From a virus, in IMG/VR virus record IMGVR_UViG_3300022871_001708, positions 1-23,245 of that record: a stretch of DNA of 23,245 nt. The stretch is one strand, 5' to 3'. The position numbers were made by a program, and so were the translations under genes. The notes under the pieces were generated by a model that was not told where the DNA came from, did not search any database, and saw nothing but the letters and a program-made list of their open reading frames with translations. Below are positions 2,038 through 18,222 of this stretch, in pieces; position 1 is the first letter of the stretch; each line of letters starts with the position of its first letter.

Positions 2038-2600
2038 TTGAGTTCTACTACGGTGTCATGGGTAGCGGTAAGAGCAAGCGGTTAATTGACCAATACAATA
2101 TTTCAATGACCCATAAACTATTTATTGGTTTCATCGCCTGCATTGCACATTATAACGACGCCGCCGATGACAATAAACTTATTACTACACGAGATAGCGA
2201 CAAGACTATAAAACCAGCGCATATAATAACACCTAATTTCAATCTTAAGCGAGTGCAAGGATTTGATATACTATATATCGACGAAGCCCACTTCCTAACT
2301 CCCGATGCCGTCCGCTATCTATCGAATTTGGACGACTATATAGAATGCTATGGATTACTTACCGATTTCACCAACAAGCTGTTCAAGGGTTCGCAAGCAT
2401 TGCTATACTACGCAGAGCAGAGCTATTGTTTGCCAGTGCAATGCGACTACTGCAATCGACGAGCAACCCACAACATTCGATTAGTGAACGGGACGCGGGT
2501 ATTCGAGGGCGATCAGTTCGTGCTGAAGACCGACGACAACGTGGAGTATAAGGCGGTTTGTGGGGATTGCTTTAAGTCAACAAAGACCTTGACTTTCTGA
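2034..2600 (+). CDS. tdk: Thymidine kinase (type II, TK1-like)
   Basis: Converts thymidine to dTMP. It has the P-loop GVMGSGKS (residues 7-14), the Walker B/catalytic segment YIDEAHFL (81-88, with E84 as probable catalytic base), the nucleoside-site stretch YGLLTDF (106-112) and the structural zinc site of two Cys pairs (C137/C140 and C176/C179). Length (188) and motif order match bacterial and phage TK1-type enzymes. It starts inside the dNK stop codon (ATGA). The 3' end of this gene carries the -35 box of the promoter that drives the pseudoknot leader. Confidence 0.93.
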   Translation: MIEFYYGVMGSGKSKRLIDQYNISMTHKLFIGFIACIAHYNDAADDNKLITTRDSDKTIKPAHIITPNFNLKRVQGFDILYIDEAHFLTPDAVRYLSNLDDYIECYGLLTDFTNKLFKGSQALLYYAEQSYCLPVQCDYCNRRATHNIRLVNGTRVFEGDQFVLKTDDNVEYKAVCGDCFKSTKTLTF

Positions 2601-2616
2601 TGGAAATGTCTATATT
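2589..2616 (+). promoter_or_regulatory. Promoter of RNA cassette copy 1
   Basis: TTGACT at 2589-2594 and TATATT at 2611-2616 with a 16-bp spacer. The 30 bases from TTGACT through TATATTTA match copy 2 (13766-13795) at 25 positions, including the block AAATGTCTATATTTA. The predicted start site, about 7 bases past the -10 box, falls at the base of the first stem of the pseudoknot RNA. Confidence 0.75.
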
Positions 2617-2621
2617 TACTC

Positions 2622-2720
2622 TTGCTAAGAAAGGCGGGAAATACCCCGCAAACCAAGATTTTGAATATGGAAACTCCCATGAAAGCCTAACCCGCTTTTC
2701 TTAGCAACATGGGAGTTTTC
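2622..2720 (+). ncRNA. Pseudoknot leader RNA, copy 1 (upstream of C5 methyltransferase)
   Basis: Stem A pairs 2622-2632 with 2697-2707 (11 bp). Stem C pairs 2671-2681 with 2708-2718 (11 bp, extendable by a GU and a GC pair). The strands interleave as A5', C5', A3', C3', which is an H-type pseudoknot with A and C directly abutting. A hairpin B (GCGGG 2634-2638 with CCCGC 2645-2649) sits in the first loop, and a weak hairpin around CAAGATTTTG (2654-2663) may follow. GCGGG can alternatively extend stem A by pairing with CCCGC at 2691-2695, giving a possible switch. Comparison with copy 2 shows compensatory changes in 13 of 22 stem pairs. No RNA class known to me fits this strand order and these loop bases. 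Confidence 0.8.
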
Positions 2721-2736
2721 ACTATTTGGAGTTATT

Positions 2737-2781
2737 ATGAACTTACCTGAAACAACAATAAACCCCCGCAATGTCGCATGA
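2737..2781 (+). CDS. 14-residue leader peptide coupled to the methyltransferase
   Basis: GGAG (2728-2731), a 5-base TTATT spacer and ATG (2737) open a short frame encoding MNLPETTINPRNVA. Its stop overlaps the methyltransferase ATG as ATGA (2778-2781). The same SD-TTATT-ATG arrangement is the start of the methyltransferase itself in copy 2 (13904-13915). The methyltransferase ATG at 2778 has no SD of its own (upstream bases are CCCCGCAATGTCGC), so its translation probably depends on ribosomes terminating on this leader. Confidence 0.6.
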   Translation: MNLPETTINPRNVA

Positions 2782-3896
2782 AGCACATCGACCTATTCTC
2801 AGGCATCGGCGGCTTTGCCTACGCCGCCCAACAGGTGTGGGGCGATGATTATGAGAACGTCCTATTTTGCGATATTGATAAATTTTGTCAAGCGGTTCTA
2901 CGAAAGAACTTTGGAGAGGAGAGCCTGATATATGGAGACATCAAAGAAATCACAAGGGAGCGGGTTCTTGCCGACACCAACCAAGAACGGCAATTACAAT
3001 CGAAAGGGAGCGAGCAAGAACAGCGGGGACGGTCTGATAACGGCATTGAACAGATCGATCTCCTTACCGGAAGCCCGCCTTGCCAACCTTTTTCCTGCGC
3101 AGGAAAGCGACGAGGTACAGCGGATGATCGCCATCTCTGGGGAGAAATGTTTCGAGTCATCCAAGAGTTTAATCCCCGATTCATCATTGCGGAGAATGTC
3201 AGGGGGCTTATTAGTATCGAAGACGGCGTGGTTTTCGAGACAATGTGTGCTGACCTGGAAAGTATCGGTTACGCCGTCCAGACGTTTATTATTCCGGCTT
3301 GTGCCAAAGGTGCGCCGCACCGGAGAGACCGAGTGTGGATTGTCGGGCATCTTACCGACACCGCAAACACAGGGGCTGAAGGTATGCGACAAGAACGGAA
3401 AAACGCAATACATGAAACTACTCAAAACCCCGTCCGCTTGCGAGACCGAGGGCGGGATAATGGAGATTCGACCGGGTGCGAACGCCCACTACAAACTCCG
3501 AGACCAGATAGCGATGATACCGACCCCAAGAGCAGGGGATTATCAGAGTCCGGGACTTCACGGCACCGGGGGCAAGGATTTAAGGACGGAAATATCAATG
3601 ATACCGACGCCGAATGCACGGGATTACAAGGGAGCAACGAAAGAACTCCGTCCCGGACGGAATCTAAACGATTCATTGGACACTACAATAGAGAATGGGA
3701 GCAATCATGGATTGAAGTTGCAACCGAACTTTGTAGAGTGGATGATGGGATTCCCGCGGTCATGGACGGACTTGAACTCTCCGCCGCAAAACACCGAACA
3801 GAACGACTCAAATCACTCGGCAATGCGATAGTGCCGCAAATAGCGATGGAGCTGATGAGGGCGATAAAAGATTGTATGGGAGATGTTGCATTATGA
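2778..3896 (+). CDS. DNA cytosine-5 methyltransferase
   Basis: Methylates cytosine at C5 in a specific DNA sequence using SAM. Motif I is IDLFSGIGGF (residues 4-13). Motif IV is TGSPPCQPFS with the catalytic C102 and is followed by CAGKRRGT. Motif VI is ENV (139-141), motif VIII is HRRDRVWIVG (181-190), and motif X is SLGNAIVPQ near residue 350. All catalytic parts are present at 372 residues, so the enzyme looks intact. An insert of about 25 polar residues (66-91) separates motif I from motif IV, and the target-recognition region (about 193-310) is low in complexity. Both stretches lie where a second frame is open (2932-3831). Translation is probably coupled to the leader peptide at 2737. 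It acts as phage DNA modification, for example protection against restriction. Confidence 0.92.
   Translation: MKHIDLFSGIGGFAYAAQQVWGDDYENVLFCDIDKFCQAVLRKNFGEESLIYGDIKEITRERVLADTNQERQLQSKGSEQEQRGRSDNGIEQIDLLTGSPPCQPFSCAGKRRGTADDRHLWGEMFRVIQEFNPRFIIAENVRGLISIEDGVVFETMCADLESIGYAVQTFIIPACAKGAPHRRDRVWIVGHLTDTANTGAEGMRQERKNAIHETTQNPVRLRDRGRDNGDSTGCERPLQTPRPDSDDTDPKSRGLSESGTSRHRGQGFKDGNINDTDAECTGLQGSNERTPSRTESKRFIGHYNREWEQSWIEVATELCRVDDGIPAVMDGLELSAAKHRTERLKSLGNAIVPQIAMELMRAIKDCMGDVAL
2932..3831 (+). CDS. Overlapping +1-frame ORF with repeated TPT motifs
   Basis: A 299-codon ORF lying entirely inside the C5 methyltransferase gene in another frame. It reads like a real protein. It contains FLPTPTKNGNYNRKGASKNS (residues 12-31), CVLTWKVSVTPSRRLLF (105-121), repeated proline motifs (LPTPQTQG 141-148, LKTPSA 164-169, IPTPRAGDY 196-204, IPTPNARDYKG 224-234) and the ending LKLQPNFVEWMMGFPRSWTD (261-280). 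From memory, very similar strings occur in database proteins encoded inside or beside phage and bacterial C5 methyltransferase genes; I could not check this. An SD-like AGGAG lies 10 bases before the ATG. Function is unknown; it may aid target recognition or regulate the methyltransferase. The alternative is that it is a by-product of the conserved methyltransferase frame. Confidence 0.5.
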   Translation: METSKKSQGSGFLPTPTKNGNYNRKGASKNSGDGLITALNRSISLPEARLANLFPAQESDEVQRMIAISGEKCFESSKSLIPDSSLRRMSGGLLVSKTAWFSRQCVLTWKVSVTPSRRLLFRLVPKVRRTGETECGLSGILPTPQTQGLKVCDKNGKTQYMKLLKTPSACETEGGIMEIRPGANAHYKLRDQIAMIPTPRAGDYQSPGLHGTGGKDLRTEISMIPTPNARDYKGATKELRPGRNLNDSLDTTIENGSNHGLKLQPNFVEWMMGFPRSWTDLNSPPQNTEQNDSNHSAMR

Positions 3897-4054
3897 AGAT
3901 AGACGTAAAAGGCAAAGCCGAACTGTACGTGGGGAACGCTATCGATGTTCTGAAAACATTCAAGCCGGAGACGGTCAACTGCTCGATGTCAAGCCCGCCG
4001 TATTGTTTATTTAATTTAGCACTTGACAATATGGCGGTTTATCCTTATATTTAG
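3893..4054 (+). pseudogene. N-terminal remnant of an N4-cytosine/N6-adenine DNA methyltransferase
   Basis: The ORF starts by ATGA overlap with the C5 methyltransferase stop. It encodes a typical beginning of a beta-class amino-methyltransferase: AELYVGNAIDVLKTFKPETV then motif IV SSPPY (residues 33-37, ending at base 4003). After SPPY the homology stops and the frame runs out at 4054. The matching C-terminal end lies at 5373-5524, beyond an HNH gene and a DUF5662-like gene. The middle of the enzyme (target recognition and the DPFxGSG part of motif I) is missing, so activity is not expected. Confidence 0.8.
4023..4051 (+). promoter_or_regulatory. Consensus promoter of the HNH endonuclease gene
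   Basis: TTGACA (4023-4028), a 17-bp spacer and TATATT (4046-4051), close to sigma70 consensus. It lies inside the inserted segment, after the SPPY break point. The expected start site, about 7 bases downstream, coincides with the ATG at 4058, so the transcript would be leaderless or nearly so. Confidence 0.7.
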
Positions 4055-4057
4055 AGT

Positions 4058-4681
4058 ATGAAAAACAAAGACAGAAATGACAAAGGACAGTTTATCAAGG
4101 GCAAGCGACCCTCGAAAAACACTGAGTTTCAAAAGGGTCAACATTGGAGAGAGCCACAACCCTATTGGAATAAGGACGTATTGGAAGATTTGTATATCAA
4201 ACAACAGAAATCGGCGACTGAAATTGCAGATATGTTTGAATGCAAGAGCGCAAATATACTCTATTTTCTCAAAAAAAATGGCATTCCCCGACGGTCAATT
4301 AAAGAGACAAGAGAAATAAAGTATTGGGGTCAAAGTGGGGAAGACAATCCAATGTTTGGAGTGACGGGCAAAGACAATCCAAATTGGCAAGGTGGACATA
4401 CTCCATTTCGACAACGGATGTATCAAAATCCACAATGGAAAGAACTCTACAAAATGGTTTTGGAAAGGGACGGTTACAAGTGCAAACTTTGTAAAAACAC
4501 AAAGAAGCTACACTTACATCATACCTTGCCGGTATGTCTCTATCCTGAGCTTATTTTAGAACCAGAATACATCATAACGGTTTGTTCTGAATGTCATAAG
4601 AAGCTACACAAAACCCGCTATTTGAGAGCCGATACGATAGAGGAGTTTAATCAACTGTTTTACGATGGGAAGATAAAATGA
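4058..4681 (+). CDS. HNH homing endonuclease with NUMOD3 motifs
   Basis: A probable selfish free-standing homing endonuclease. Basic N-terminal motifs (GQFIKGKRPS, FQKGQHW, residues 10-30) are followed by an HTH-like segment (about 39-80), NUMOD3 repeats GEDNPMFG and GKDNPNWQGG (94-113) and an HNH domain. That domain has Cys pairs C142/C145 and C176/C179 and the LHLHH core (151-155). The gene is more AT-rich than its neighbours and has its own promoter. No SD precedes the ATG. It sits exactly where the amino-methyltransferase gene is broken after its SPPY codons, as expected for insertion at a conserved target. Confidence 0.88.
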   Translation: MKNKDRNDKGQFIKGKRPSKNTEFQKGQHWREPQPYWNKDVLEDLYIKQQKSATEIADMFECKSANILYFLKKNGIPRRSIKETREIKYWGQSGEDNPMFGVTGKDNPNWQGGHTPFRQRMYQNPQWKELYKMVLERDGYKCKLCKNTKKLHLHHTLPVCLYPELILEPEYIITVCSECHKKLHKTRYLRADTIEEFNQLFYDGKIK

Positions 4682-13492: not shown

Positions 13493-13729
13493 ATGTGCGC
13501 GCGGAAAATGACACTCGAGGAGTTCATGGATTTTGAAGGTGTAAGACGGCAACTATTCTGTCAAGGACTTATGAAGGAACTGCAAGACAAACCAACGAAA
13601 ATGTCGCCGGATAAAGTCAATAAATACGTACAGGACGCCTTAATGGAGAACATCAAAGAGATATACGAAGACGATCAGATAATCTATGCGAGAATCAAAA
13701 TGTCGGGTAACTATGGGGCGGGGAAATGA
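13493..13729 (+). CDS. Small hypothetical protein
   Basis: 78 residues, helical and acidic/basic mixed (LEEFMDFEGVRRQLFCQGLM, KVNKYVQDALMENIKEIYED). Follows the portal gene with only a weak SD. No recognised family. Its stop overlaps an ATG (13726) that opens a 59-codon frame running through the pseudoknot RNA. Confidence 0.55.
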   Translation: MCARKMTLEEFMDFEGVRRQLFCQGLMKELQDKPTKMSPDKVNKYVQDALMENIKEIYEDDQIIYARIKMSGNYGAGK

Positions 13730-13765
13730 ACGATTGTACCGACGCTATTCTTGCAAAAAAAGGAT

Positions 13766-13793
13766 TTGACTTTTTGGCTAAAATGTCTATATT
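13766..13793 (+). promoter_or_regulatory. Promoter of RNA cassette copy 2
   Basis: TTGACT (13766-13771), 16-bp spacer, TATATT (13788-13793). Matches the copy 1 promoter at 25 of 30 positions, with the identical block AAATGTCTATATTTA. The predicted start site near 13800 coincides with the first base of stem A. It gives the methyltransferase and SNF2 helicase genes their own transcription within the late region. Confidence 0.75.
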
Positions 13794-13799
13794 TAACAA

Positions 13800-13896
13800 T
13801 GTAAAGAGCAGGCGGGAATCACCCCGCAACAAAACCATTTTGATATTGAAAAGCCCTGACAAGCCCCAACGCTTGCTCTTTACAACAGGGCTTTTC
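13800..13896 (+). ncRNA. Pseudoknot leader RNA, copy 2 (upstream of amino-methyltransferase)
   Basis: Stem A pairs 13800-13810 with 13874-13884. Stem C pairs 13848-13858 with 13886-13896. Hairpin B pairs GCGGG (13812-13816) with CCCGC (13823-13827), identical to copy 1. A further hairpin CAAAA-CCA-TTTTG (13830-13842) lies in the same loop. The strand order A5', C5', A3', C3' is a pseudoknot with one base between the abutting stems. The loop between C5' and A3' is 15 bases in both copies, with shared AAGCC and ACGCT/CCGCT elements. SD GAGG (13904-13907) and ATG 13913 follow eight bases after the fold. Confidence 0.8.
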
Positions 13897-13912
13897 TCTA
13901 TTTGAGGTTATT

Positions 13913-14689
13913 ATGCCAAAAACACTTTCAAGCAAACTTAGCATTATGAACCAACTAATCCACGCCGATTGTCTCGACGCTATGCAAGAGATAGCCGATA
14001 AGTCGATTGACCTTGTAGTTACAAGTCCTCCATACAATATGCGAACCCGTATAAGAAACGGGGAATACACTGAACGAGAAAAATCAGACCATTTCAGTAA
14101 GAAATATGATACTTTCCACGACGCTTATCCGATAGATACTTATTATGAGATACACAAAAGGGCAATTAATGAAATGCTTAGAATCTCAAAATTGGTATTC
14201 ATAAATATCCAAATTGTAACGGGTTCTAAGGAAGCATGGTTTCGACTTATCGGCGAATTTGCAACTAAAATCAGAGATATAATTATTTGGGATAAGGGCA
14301 ATGGACAACCGGCAATGCACGGCTCTGTAATAAACAAGGGCAGTGAACTCATATTAGCAATGGAATCTTCGGCGATAGCAGGGAGGGCATTCGACACAAG
14401 CTATTTTGAGCGGGGCAAAATGCAAGATATTTGGAGACTTGGCAGGGGAGACAGTAGTTTTGATGGACATAATGCAGTTTTTCCATTGTCATTACCTACA
14501 ATGATTATATCTAATTGGACAAAGCCGGATGACATTGTTTGCGATCCGTTTGCGGGCGTGATGACAACCGCAATAGCATGTATAAACCTTAAACGCCGAT
14601 ATATCTGCATTGAAAAGGATAAGGATATATTCGATAGAGGCGCGCAACGAGTCAACGATAGATTGAATCAAATGGAGTTGGAACTTTGA
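13913..14689 (+). CDS. DNA N6-adenine/N4-cytosine methyltransferase (beta class)
   Basis: Adds a methyl group to an exocyclic amino group in DNA. Motif IV TSPPYNM (residues 37-43) precedes motif I CDPFAGVMTT (210-219), the beta-class order. Between them lie IIIWDKGNGQPAMHG and ELILAMESS, typical of this group. Motif I has GVM where GSG/GTG is usual, which may weaken SAM binding. The ATG at 13913 is chosen because GAGG lies five bases upstream; recognisable homology begins at MNQLIHADC, 11 codons later. It overlaps the SNF2 helicase start by four bases (TTGA), so the two are translated together. SPPY alone does not distinguish adenine from cytosine as substrate. Confidence 0.88.
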   Translation: MPKTLSSKLSIMNQLIHADCLDAMQEIADKSIDLVVTSPPYNMRTRIRNGEYTEREKSDHFSKKYDTFHDAYPIDTYYEIHKRAINEMLRISKLVFINIQIVTGSKEAWFRLIGEFATKIRDIIIWDKGNGQPAMHGSVINKGSELILAMESSAIAGRAFDTSYFERGKMQDIWRLGRGDSSFDGHNAVFPLSLPTMIISNWTKPDDIVCDPFAGVMTTAIACINLKRRYICIEKDKDIFDRGAQRVNDRLNQMELEL

Positions 14690-17600
14690 GTCCATTCCTC
14701 CGCAACATATTCTCTCGCAAGCCCAAAGGGGCGCCGCCAGTGGGTTCTCCTTCTCCCACGCCAAAAGCGGCGCCCCGTCTCCCATCTTTGCCCACAGCAA
14801 CGGCAACACCGAAAGCGGGCGCGGCTTCGGCGGCGAACACGGCATCCGATCAGCAGAAGCGCAAGGCGATCCAACGACCGGGTAGTCGGGGCGGTAAGTT
14901 TTACATCGATGACAACGGCGTGGTCGTGTATGGCACACATCCGACGGGCAAGCGCACAATGTCATCGGACGACCCTAAGATTTCAGGATTTCTCAAACTA
15001 TACCACAAGGCAAAGGATTCCGGCGACGAGGCGGGCGCCAAGCGATGGCTCGACCGCATAAAAGCGTCGGGTACTGCGACCGAGGCTACAAAGGCGGGCA
15101 AAGAGCTCGCGGCTATCCAAGACCCCCGGACACTCGCATACAAGCGACCGGACGAGATTACTCGGACGGACTCGCTATCGTTGCTCGCGATGGGAATGCG
15201 ATCCGGCGTGATACAATTCGGCGAGGCGGGCGATCTCGAAATAGTGGGTTCGGCGGCTATCCGAAAACTCAAGGCATCGGTCGGCAAGCCCGATAAGGCG
15301 CTATACGATATACTCGCAAGTCTATCCGGCGGCAAGCGGGTCGGTCTCGACAAGCTATCGGTCAAAGATACTCTTGCCGGAATCAGTAGAGACACACTCA
15401 AAAAATACGCTGGCGATCTCGCTACACTTCAGGACGATTATCGTTCCGGCGAATCCGAGGAGATGAAACAGCTTGTCGATCAGGCGGCTGGCAAGAGCCG
15501 GGGCAAGAGCAAGGTCAAGCCGTTCTCGATGAGAGCAGTGAAACAAGCCACCGAGGAGCGCAAGCAACACCGCGAGAAGCTGATGAAAGCGCAACAAAAC
15601 GAGGAATTACCCGATATAAAGGGCATGGAGGGCGTTTCATTCTATCCTGTCCAGAAAAAGGGTATAAATTGGCTAACAACCGCCGGGCGTGGTGTGTTGG
15701 CTTTTGATACAGGCACCGGGAAAGCACAGCCATTGGATGCCAAAGTTCTTACCCCAAGCGGTTGGAAACTAATGGGCGACATTAAAGTGGGAGACAACGT
15801 TGTCGGAGACACCGGAAAACCGGCTCAAGTAGTAGGGGTTTATCCACAAGGCAAATTGGGTATTTATAAAGTTATGTTTAGCGATGGTACGAGTACAGAA
15901 TGTTGCGATCAGCACTTATGGCTTATAAATTCTTCTACAAGAAATTATCTAAATTACCCATGGAGGGTTAAGCCACTATATGACATACGAAATACTTTGT
16001 ATGAAAAATGTAAATTGGATAAATTGAGGCATTATATCCCACTGACGCAACCTGTTCAATTTGAGTCTATTGGAGAATTGCCCGTACACCCTTACCTAAT
16101 GGGTGCATTATTAGGTGATGGATGCCTAAGCCAAGATACTATTTCTTTTTCAACTGCGGATAAAGAAATGATAAATAGACTGAAAAATAAATTACCTGAG
16201 CAAGTCAAATTTAATAAATCAAAATCCGGGGAATATGACTACAGAATTGTGAAAGTTAAAAATAATGGCGGCTCAAATGAGTTAATGCAAGCATTGATTA
16301 AGTTAAATCTAAGCGGACGGAAAAGCCATGATAAATTTATTCCAAACATTTACAAATTCGCTTCGATTAAGGATAGAAAATATTTGTTAAGGGGACTTAT
16401 GGATACAGATGGTTCCATAACTCAAAAAAGTCATAATATTGAATATTCGACAGCATCAAAACAATTAGCAGATGACATAATATTTCTAATACAGTCATTG
16501 GGTGGAACAGCAAAACTGAAGATAAGGACTACAAGCTATACGTATAAAGGCGAAAATCTCGAAGGAAAACTATCGCATAGATTAAGTATTTCAATGCCTA
16601 AAAATATTAATCCATTCGCACTGCATAGAAAATCACAGATGTTTGCCCAAAGACAAAAATATTTTGCAAGCCGCAGAATAGTGGGCGTGGAGTACGTGGG
16701 CGTGAAATCGGCACAATGTATTTTACTAAATAATCGGAGTCATCTATATTTGACTGACAATTTTATAGTAACACACAATACCCCCACAGCGCTTGGTGCA
16801 GTCCAAAAACTCATGTCCGAGGGCAAGGTCAAGGGCGGGATCGTGTTCGCTACCAAGTCCGGTCTAAGCCAGTGGGGCGACGATGTGGACGGCGAGATAC
16901 GAAAGTTCGTACCGGACGCTAAGATTGTCATGGTGGACGGCACCAAAGCACAGAAGCTCAAGGCGCTCAAGAATGCAGGGGACGCCGATTATATCGTTGT
17001 CGGATGGAGCGCAATGTCGGTCGATGAGGACGACGAGGTTCTCAATGCGCTCGGTAACATGAACGACAGGGCGGTCGTACTCGACGAGGGCATTCGAGTT
17101 AAGAACATGGGTTCGCAACGAACAAGGAATTTCATCAATCAGTTCACCGATAAAGAGGAATACTTATTCAATCTCACGGCGTCACCGGGCGGAAATAATC
17201 CGATGGAGACCTATAATCTCGTGAATAGTTTATACCCGGGCGTACTCGGTACCGTCGAGGCATTCAAAAACCGATACTACAAAACCGTGAAAAGCGACGA
17301 CGGGCGGCGTGAGATCGAATACGTAAATCTCGACCAACTCCATAAGGATATCGAGCCATACATTTTCATCAAGAAGATGTCCGACCCGGATGTCGGTATC
17401 AATCTACCGCCGGTCGTAAGAACACGTGGGATATTGGACATGGACGCAAACCAAACCAAAGCATACGCTAAATCCGTCGAAGGTGCTAAATCGGCACTCC
17501 TGAAGGTCAAAGACCAAGACAACGTGACAGCACAGGAGAAGATGAACATATTAGCCGCCATCACCAAGTCTCGCCAAGCAGCGATAGACCCGTGGCTCGT

Positions 17601-18222
17601 GGACGATACCTATACCGGCGAGTCGGTCAAAATTAACGGGCTTATCGATTCCGTCGGTGACGCTCTGCTACAAGAACCGGACAGAGGCTCGCTATGTTTT
17701 TCGGATATGGGCAGCCGTGCATTCCCAAAGATTCAAGAGAAGATGGCTAAAAAGCTCGGACTCGATCCAAATGAGATCGGCATAATTAGCGGTCAGACCA
17801 GTAGCAAGGATCGAGACCGAGTGCGCAAAGGATTAAACGATGGGACAATCAAAGTCGCATTATTATCGATAAGGGCAGCATCCGAAGGATTAAATTTACA
17901 AAAGCGGTCAAATCGAGTCTTTTTACTTGACATGCCGTGGAATCCTGAGCTTATTAAACAGGCGATTGCACGAGTGTTTCGACGTGGACAAGAACGACAG
18001 GTTGTCTCGACATCATTCATCGCAAAGAATACTATCGACGAACACATGGTCAAGCTATTGGACAAGAAAAGCAAAATGTTCTCCGCAATAAAGGGGCAGT
18101 TGACCGACGCAGCACTCGCAAAGAATCTCACATTCGATGACTTTGCGGAACTGCTGGGGTTCACGAGGGAGCAGATTAAGAACGGGGAAACTGAGAGGAA
18201 CGGGGATAAAAATAATGGATAG
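14686..18222 (+). CDS. SNF2-family helicase interrupted by an intein
   Basis: A 1178-residue precursor; 826 residues after splicing. TTG start coupled to the methyltransferase, GGAG eight bases upstream. The N-terminal 60 residues are Pro/Ala-rich and disordered, followed by RGGKFYIDDNGVVVYGTHP (about 67-85), a motif I associate with phage virion or virion-linked proteins. SNF2 motifs are Walker A DTGTGK-T split by the intein, a variant motif II VVLDEGIRVKN, motif III LTASPGGN, C-terminal IRAASEGLNLQKRSNRVFLL and QAIARVFRRGQ (motif VI). The location between portal and minor head genes and next to a methyltransferase suggests a DarB-like injected antirestriction function (inference). Confidence 0.88.
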   Translation: MSPFLRNIFSRKPKGAPPVGSPSPTPKAAPRLPSLPTATATPKAGAASAANTASDQQKRKAIQRPGSRGGKFYIDDNGVVVYGTHPTGKRTMSSDDPKISGFLKLYHKAKDSGDEAGAKRWLDRIKASGTATEATKAGKELAAIQDPRTLAYKRPDEITRTDSLSLLAMGMRSGVIQFGEAGDLEIVGSAAIRKLKASVGKPDKALYDILASLSGGKRVGLDKLSVKDTLAGISRDTLKKYAGDLATLQDDYRSGESEEMKQLVDQAAGKSRGKSKVKPFSMRAVKQATEERKQHREKLMKAQQNEELPDIKGMEGVSFYPVQKKGINWLTTAGRGVLAFDTGTGKAQPLDAKVLTPSGWKLMGDIKVGDNVVGDTGKPAQVVGVYPQGKLGIYKVMFSDGTSTECCDQHLWLINSSTRNYLNYPWRVKPLYDIRNTLYEKCKLDKLRHYIPLTQPVQFESIGELPVHPYLMGALLGDGCLSQDTISFSTADKEMINRLKNKLPEQVKFNKSKSGEYDYRIVKVKNNGGSNELMQALIKLNLSGRKSHDKFIPNIYKFASIKDRKYLLRGLMDTDGSITQKSHNIEYSTASKQLADDIIFLIQSLGGTAKLKIRTTSYTYKGENLEGKLSHRLSISMPKNINPFALHRKSQMFAQRQKYFASRRIVGVEYVGVKSAQCILLNNRSHLYLTDNFIVTHNTPTALGAVQKLMSEGKVKGGIVFATKSGLSQWGDDVDGEIRKFVPDAKIVMVDGTKAQKLKALKNAGDADYIVVGWSAMSVDEDDEVLNALGNMNDRAVVLDEGIRVKNMGSQRTRNFINQFTDKEEYLFNLTASPGGNNPMETYNLVNSLYPGVLGTVEAFKNRYYKTVKSDDGRREIEYVNLDQLHKDIEPYIFIKKMSDPDVGINLPPVVRTRGILDMDANQTKAYAKSVEGAKSALLKVKDQDNVTAQEKMNILAAITKSRQAAIDPWLVDDTYTGESVKINGLIDSVGDALLQEPDRGSLCFSDMGSRAFPKIQEKMAKKLGLDPNEIGIISGQTSSKDRDRVRKGLNDGTIKVALLSIRAASEGLNLQKRSNRVFLLDMPWNPELIKQAIARVFRRGQERQVVSTSFIAKNTIDEHMVKLLDKKSKMFSAIKGQLTDAALAKNLTFDDFAELLGFTREQIKNGETERNGDKNNG
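15724..16779 (+). mobile_element. Intein with class 3 hallmarks and LAGLIDADG homing endonuclease
   Basis: 352 residues (347-698 of the precursor), beginning AQPLDAKVLTPSGWKLMGDI and ending LYLTDNFIVTHN, followed by extein Thr. It sits between K and T of the helicase Walker A motif, so splicing restores GTGKT. The first residue is Ala, not Cys/Ser. The WCT triplet of class 3 inteins is present: Trp in DQHLW (block B position 12), Cys in SAQCIL (block F position 4) and Thr in VTHN (block G position 5). Two endonuclease motifs are visible, YLMGALLGDGCLS and YLLRGLMDTDGSI. The DNA is clearly more AT-rich than the flanking helicase, consistent with recent transfer. Confidence 0.92.

Follow-up and report, generated by a model that had tools for sequence, protein, structure and literature searches.

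The locus analysed here raises the question of what a structured RNA leader does in front of a phage DNA methyltransferase gene, and why a second copy of this leader precedes another methyltransferase gene of the same genome. The window, that is, the whole stretch of DNA analysed, is an IMG/VR record of 23,245 bases, and corresponds to a fragment of a tailed phage genome (terminase, portal, helicases and nucleoside kinases are encoded). The methyltransferases behind copy 1 and copy 2 of the leader are unrelated enzymes (C5 cytosine versus N4/N6):

2778..3896, + strand: C5 cytosine DNA methyltransferase gene, behind copy 1 (PF00145, E 1.7e-47; phrog_363)
13913..14689, + strand: N4/N6 DNA methyltransferase gene, behind copy 2 (PF01555, E 1.4e-28)

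An earlier note on this DNA had described both leaders as pseudoknots formed by two crossing stems (A and C) with a hairpin (B), and had placed these elements where they are indeed present in both copies:

2622..2632, + strand: stem A 5' strand of copy 1, predicted to lie at about +1 of the transcript; perfect complement of 2697-2707
2634..2649, + strand: hairpin B of copy 1, GCGGG-AAATAC-CCCGC, from the sequence; copy 2 has the same stem, phage L115 has no hairpin B
2671..2681, + strand: stem C 5' strand of copy 1; perfect complement of 2708-2718
2697..2707, + strand: stem A 3' strand of copy 1; pairs with 2622-2632
2708..2719, + strand: stem C 3' strand and U4 run of copy 1, terminator-like, from the sequence and the pairing with C5'
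13800..13810, + strand: stem A 5' strand of copy 2; pairs with 13874-13884
13812..13827, + strand: hairpin B of copy 2, GCGGG-AATCAC-CCCGC, from the sequence
13848..13858, + strand: stem C 5' strand of copy 2; pairs with 13886-13896
13874..13884, + strand: stem A 3' strand of copy 2; pairs with 13800-13810
13886..13896, + strand: stem C 3' strand of copy 2, with a U4 run (13892-13895); pairs with C5'

All the pairs of stems A and C are Watson-Crick in both copies, and two perfect 11-bp crossing helices are possible in each leader. The loop between C5' and A3' measures 15 nt in copy 1 and copy 2, as had been claimed. Two other claims held in part: the stems abut in copy 1 (gap 0) and are separated in copy 2 by an unpaired base (13885) between A3' and C3'; and hairpin B, reported as identical, has the same stem in both copies and a different loop (AAATAC versus AATCAC). 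The compensatory double changes between the copies were recovered exactly as counted before, in 8 of the 11 pairs of stem A and 5 of the 11 pairs of stem C (13/22 overall), with no pair broken. Only 9 of the 22 bases of the 5' arms are identical between the copies, the loops and hairpin B having been conserved while the arms diverged. Pairs were counted with the stems anchored by constant spacers; MAFFT, whether run on the stems alone or on complete leaders, gave alignments that were not structure-true.

The pattern of changes bears on two alternative explanations. Some DNA methyltransferases control their own genes by binding promoter DNA, and the inverted repeats might accordingly act as DNA (cruciform, single-strand hairpin or methyltransferase operator); we consider this extremely improbable, since an operator read by its sequence would not allow changes in 13 pairs with the pairing kept, and since the repeats are located 3' of the promoter and are themselves transcribed. 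Conserved loops and hairpin B between diverged arms are, by contrast, what would be expected of a bound RNA, and a phage or host protein (e.g. the methyltransferase) might bind the pseudoknot and repress its own translation, like gp32 on gene 32 of T4, the phage precedent (PMC3014915). Such a protein operator is nevertheless unlikely, as the leader is common to two unrelated enzymes, so that self-recognition by each would be a coincidence, and hairpin B is missing in the third locus described below.

The fold was compared with chance by a blind topology search of both window strands for two crossing helices with an A3'-C3' spacing of at most 3 nt. The two leaders ranked first and second in the window (25.0 and 23.5; third score 20.5), and dinucleotide shuffles of the whole window (n = 10) gave top scores of 16.5-20.5. 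None of the dinucleotide shuffles of each leader (2000 per leader) attained the leader's score, and the nested MFE z-scores of the two window leaders against shuffles were -5.9 and -4.2.

A third locus, in phage L115, was found by a structural descriptor scan over contigs brought in by other searches. L115:177-262 has the same layout as the window leaders (promoter, A, C, a helix D described below, U6) with no sequence similarity, and the terminases of L115 and the window are 25% identical. The stems of L115 are:

177-189/236-248 of L115: stem A, 13 bp
212-224/250-262 of L115: stem C, 13 bp, one G-U

There is 1 nt between A3' and C3', and the T run stands directly after C. The promoter (TTGACA-17-TAAGTT, with a weak -10 box) lies just before A, the Shine-Dalgarno sequence GGGAGG is inside C3', the ATG follows the six T, hairpin B is absent, and the downstream gene encodes an HNH endonuclease (PF13392). 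With a promoter made compulsory at the 5' border of stem A, scores were 35, 34.5 and 33.5 for the three loci, 29.5 for the next real locus, and also 29.5 for the best locus of the reversed-sequence control. Over the three loci (two in the window plus L115) 66/66 cells were paired, a figure partly built in because the L115 register was picked from its own helices, and 18 of the 22 pairs showed changes on both sides; none of 500 shuffles reached this level of pairing, and slid registers were 33-53% paired. The earlier note had asked for further homologues with covariation, and L115 provides a further covarying case in another phage (a single locus, found by structure). Its central claim, a selected pseudoknot RNA structure in phage methyltransferase leaders, is well supported by the pairing and the covariation, and also by the shuffles: the leader structure is very probably real and selected.

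Two ORFs whose start codon overlaps the stop of the preceding gene (TGATG, ATGA) cross the window leaders at 2600-2704 (34 codons) and 13726-13905 (59 codons), and both include MSIF, encoded by the -10 region. Leader peptides were considered for these two ORFs and for L115:178-249, which likewise spans the leader, and were rejected, start, stop and sequence being unconserved.

The members known are three loci in two phages. No further locus was found with the structural descriptor in ~4 Mb of other phage DNA (with overlaps), no further case in the leaders of relatives (44 of the N4/N6 methyltransferase, 2 of the C5 methyltransferase, 80 HNH), and no new locus on the DNA flanking the methyltransferase relatives in Bacteroides BKO1-TP3, Pseudoalteromonas Y7 and Vibrio SHOU24. 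Whole or near-whole contigs of terminase and methyltransferase relatives gave only L115 again, and the search for relatives of the L115 primase returned only itself. Comparison of the window leaders with phages and plasmids by blastn yielded only chance words of ~19-31 nt, and sequence patterns (hairpin B, promoter, L115 stem C) across IMG/VR and one GTDB genome scan only unrelated chance sites. A terminator-like site of Buttiauxella from these pattern searches was discarded as unrelated, arising by chance. Several viral contigs (L244, L246, L248, L249 and others) share a recurring promoter, TTGACT...TATATTTA followed by GGCGGG, before one conserved coding sequence; it is superficially like the window promoter and comes without a pseudoknot.

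The earlier note could not match the structure to a known riboswitch or ribozyme; this agrees with Rfam 15, in which no family reached its gathering score for the window, for L115 or for L093 (a different phage leader described at the end), and there was no credible match below threshold among these three. The best sub-threshold scores were 18.2 bits (gathering 99) and 25.6 bits (gathering 67); the latter would make L115 a Spy779816 RNA, an assignment that was rejected as resting mainly on generic terminator pairing. The STAXI motif (Weinberg et al. 2010) also comprises pseudoknots near DNA-manipulating or antirestriction genes (PMC2864571), but it is built of pseudoknots repeated in tandem, two or three in number and in many cases with UUCG loops, whereas the window and L115 leaders are single, promoter-adjacent and without Rfam match. 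On the basis of three loci in two phages, and within the open-access papers compared, the leaders are a candidate new leader type and not yet an established class.

The extent of the repeated unit was delimited by the following features:

2589..2616, + strand: promoter of copy 1, TTGACT - 16 nt - TATATT, consensus match 10/12; same hexamers and spacing in copy 2; inter-copy homology starts here
13766..13793, + strand: promoter of copy 2, TTGACT - 16 nt - TATATT, from the motif
2728..2739, + strand: Shine-Dalgarno sequence GGAG and cassette ATG of copy 1, from the sequence; the Shine-Dalgarno is predicted to be paired at 0.95 or more in nested folding
2737..2781, + strand: 14-codon ORF from the cassette ATG of copy 1, from the sequence; its TGA overlaps the methyltransferase ATG (ATGA)
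13904..13915, + strand: Shine-Dalgarno sequence GAGG and cassette ATG of copy 2, from the sequence

The -10 box ends 5-6 nt upstream of stem A in the window copies, so that transcription should begin at, or 1-2 bases from, the first base of A. Identity between the copies is 73.5% over the stretch bounded by the -35 box and the cassette ATG, against 49.7% and 48.5% in the 150-nt flanks and a background of 46.7 ± 2.3%; since the homology runs from the -35 box to the ATG and the flanks are at background, the repeated unit comprises promoter, leader, ribosome site and start codon, and the cassette nature of the window copies is read directly from the sequence. The earlier note had mentioned neither the promoter at the 5' edge nor these boundaries, nor the U-run, the helix D described below or the 14-codon ORF of copy 1. 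The natural start of both methyltransferase genes probably lies elsewhere than at the cassette ATG, because in copy 1 it opens the 14-codon ORF and in copy 2 it puts 11 residues ahead of Met12 of the N4/N6 methyltransferase, where the alignments of relatives begin (mostly at residue 12-15); the native start of this enzyme is probably the ATG at 13946 (residue 12). A promoter, a compact pseudoknot and a hairpin with U4-U6 behind it would also make up a complete short transcription unit, as expected if the cassette encoded a discrete trans-acting small RNA with its own promoter and terminator, the downstream gene being expressed by read-through. We regard this as quite unlikely, since ribosome site and start codon follow directly, the homology between the copies extends to the start codon, and the L115 ribosome site lies within C.

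Other features of the window were noted around the two methyltransferase genes. A 299-codon open frame (2932-3831) on the same strand, in another frame, overlaps most of the C5 methyltransferase gene. At 3893-4054 there is the start of a further DNA methyltransferase-like ORF (MKIDVKGKAELYVGNAIDVL...SMSSPPY), which ends abruptly just past the SPPY motif, where an HNH gene and its promoter start; the remainder of this truncated ORF was not seen downstream. This third promoter of the same type (4023-4058, TTGACA-17-TATATT, 11/12) stands directly 5' of the HNH endonuclease gene (4058-4681), without a leader, which suggests a leaderless HNH mRNA whose predicted start is the ATG. The SNF2-type helicase at 14686-18222 includes a LAGLIDADG domain, apparently an intein in the helicase ATP-binding motif (GTGK/TPTALG).

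Besides A and C, folding of the leaders predicted a further helix, D:

2682..2698, + strand: hairpin D of copy 1 (2682-2686/2694-2698), from the MFE fold; directly after C5', with its 3' side partly common to A3'
13860..13875, + strand: hairpin D of copy 2 (13860-13864/13871-13875), from the MFE fold

Helix D is at the same place, after C5', in all three loci (L115:226-231/236-241 by folding, including G-U pairs), and a D-like helix was obtained in 1.0% (copy 1), 0.4% (copy 2) and 23% (L115) of shuffled loops. The 3' strand of D shares bases with the inner end of A3', which therefore has two possible partners: A3' and the bases just before it pair either with A5' or with D5', that is, one strand with two exclusive partners, as in a bistable RNA. 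Stem A can be extended inward by 6 (copy 1), 4 (copy 2) and 2 (L115) pairs; in copy 1, and in part in copy 2, this growth uses GGCGGG of hairpin B, excludes hairpin B, and was found in 0.4% (copy 1) and 2.1% (copy 2) of shuffles. The strand order of the leaders, A5'-(hairpin B)-C5'-D5'-D3'-A3'-C3', is a double pseudoknot. In the HDV ribozyme the strands follow the order P1-P2-P3-P3'-P1'-P2', with the P1 strand at the RNA 5' end, and this nested double pseudoknot order is present in all three loci. The likeness to HDV-like ribozymes is one of topology only, whereas P4 and J4/2 are lacking in the leaders and the A3'-C3' spacing is 0, 1 and 1 nt; identity as an HDV ribozyme was rejected (J4/2 with the catalytic cytosine missing, no Rfam match).

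In nested folding of growing transcripts of the three loci, the A fold (in its extended form in copy 1) was the best on the nascent RNA after A3' and before C3' was complete, followed by C+D, which at full length folds ~7-10 kcal/mol better than the best A folds en route; these energies come from nested folding only, the coexistence of A and C as a pseudoknot being outside its scope. The loop of C (25-27 nt) contains D, and C+D followed by the U-run (U4 in copy 1, U4 in copy 2, U6 in L115; the window runs are short) would resemble an intrinsic terminator. The ribosome site follows C3' and its U4-U6 within ~10 nt, and in L115 it is inside C3'. Pairing of the Shine-Dalgarno sequence in the stable fold is clear in L115 (inside C), predicted in copy 1 and weak in copy 2. 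For both window copies the predicted pairing of the ribosome site depends on an additional helix beyond C; shuffled tails did as well in 2.4% of cases for copy 1, where this helix is borderline, and in 43% for copy 2, where it is not significant.

We lean towards the view that this fold controls the downstream gene in cis, a regulatory role that is suggested by nested folding only and in which the start site, the switching and the direction of the effect are putative. Each window copy would be a portable expression cassette (host-type promoter, ~95-nt structured leader, ribosome site, start codon), with the leader as a default-off cis-acting switch whose transcript 5' end is one strand of the pseudoknot. 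During transcription A3' would be captured first by the RNA's own 5' end (stem A, extended inward in copy 1), and after C3' emerges the more stable C+D hairpin would take over and terminate transcription and/or cover the ribosome site (clearest in L115). The RNA 5' end would thus delay or oppose the C+D hairpin, and the A+C pseudoknot may be a locked form. Candidate triggers of the switch are timing, a small ligand or a protein.

The position of the 5' end also fits another role. Stem A starts at the expected transcript start in all three loci, and the A3'-C3' gap of 0-1 nt would put the 5' end at the joint of two stacked helices; the structure might then mainly shield the mRNA from decay that depends on its 5' end (RppH, RNase E/J) and insulate the gene, without switching. 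This role is rather unlikely, because a plain 5' hairpin would suffice for stability, and the U-run after C, helix D and the L115 ribosome site in C would be left unexplained. Sensing of a small molecule (e.g. SAM or SAH), with C+D as the expression platform of a riboswitch, is very improbable: both window enzymes should use SAM (by family), the unpaired bases are conserved between copies 1 and 2 and the layout is attenuator-like, but no Rfam riboswitch class matches, a binding pocket is not definable from two homologous copies, and the HNH nuclease behind the same layout in L115 is not a SAM enzyme, so that sensing specific to methyltransferases does not hold for the group as a whole.

To our knowledge, few phage leader RNAs with pseudoknots have been described. 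Here two unrelated methyltransferases of a single genome are preceded by a complete cassette, the fold of which is found again, with no sequence similarity, ahead of a nuclease in another phage; if the cis-acting switch proposed above is true, phages possess plug-in RNA units that control accessory enzymes possibly harmful at the wrong time. A doubtful but possible extension is that the leaders form a new class of regulatory RNA in phages, in which a portable unit of promoter, leader and start codon carries an HDV-type double pseudoknot devoid of the catalytic strand. The RNA 5' end would act as the switching strand, and the unit would gate accessory enzymes that modify DNA and might sense a ligand present in the infected cell.

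Among the known systems, the gene 32 operator of T4, T2 and RB69 resembles the leaders as a phage mRNA leader pseudoknot that precedes the ribosome site of a gene for a DNA-acting protein, and a 2010 review of T4 considered it perhaps the only viral example of a pseudoknot in translational autoregulation (PMC3014915). In gene 32 the ribosome site is part of unstructured, A+U-rich RNA that gp32 covers by binding cooperatively (PMC3014915), whereas the window and L115 leaders run from the promoter to a U-run, possess helix D and have crossing helices of 11-13 bp, with no gp32-like protein in view. The UUAA(A) repeats over the gene 32 ribosome site (PMC3014915) are absent in the three loci, and the genes behind the leaders encode C5 and N4/N6 methyltransferases and an HNH nuclease instead of a single-strand binding protein. 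A second group of phage genes, I-TevI and mobE of Aeh1, is silenced by RNA structure over the Shine-Dalgarno sequence, with T4 segB implicated and T4 gene e and soc controlled likewise (PMC3014915); the L115 HNH gene fits in function with the homing endonuclease leaders of this group. The late-promoter transcripts of T4 gene e lack the 5' strand of the structure (PMC3014915), whereas the promoter of the window and L115 leaders is just outside the structure, and their own transcript would keep the full pseudoknot.

A different phage leader with an attenuator-like layout was observed after a promoter in L093 (14900-15040, + strand). One strand of it, CCGTCAACT, pairs with an upstream strand or joins a terminator hairpin (GACCGTC-AACTA-GACGGTC) followed by TCTTTCTTT, and the predicted folding of this leader flips between the two forms as the transcript grows.
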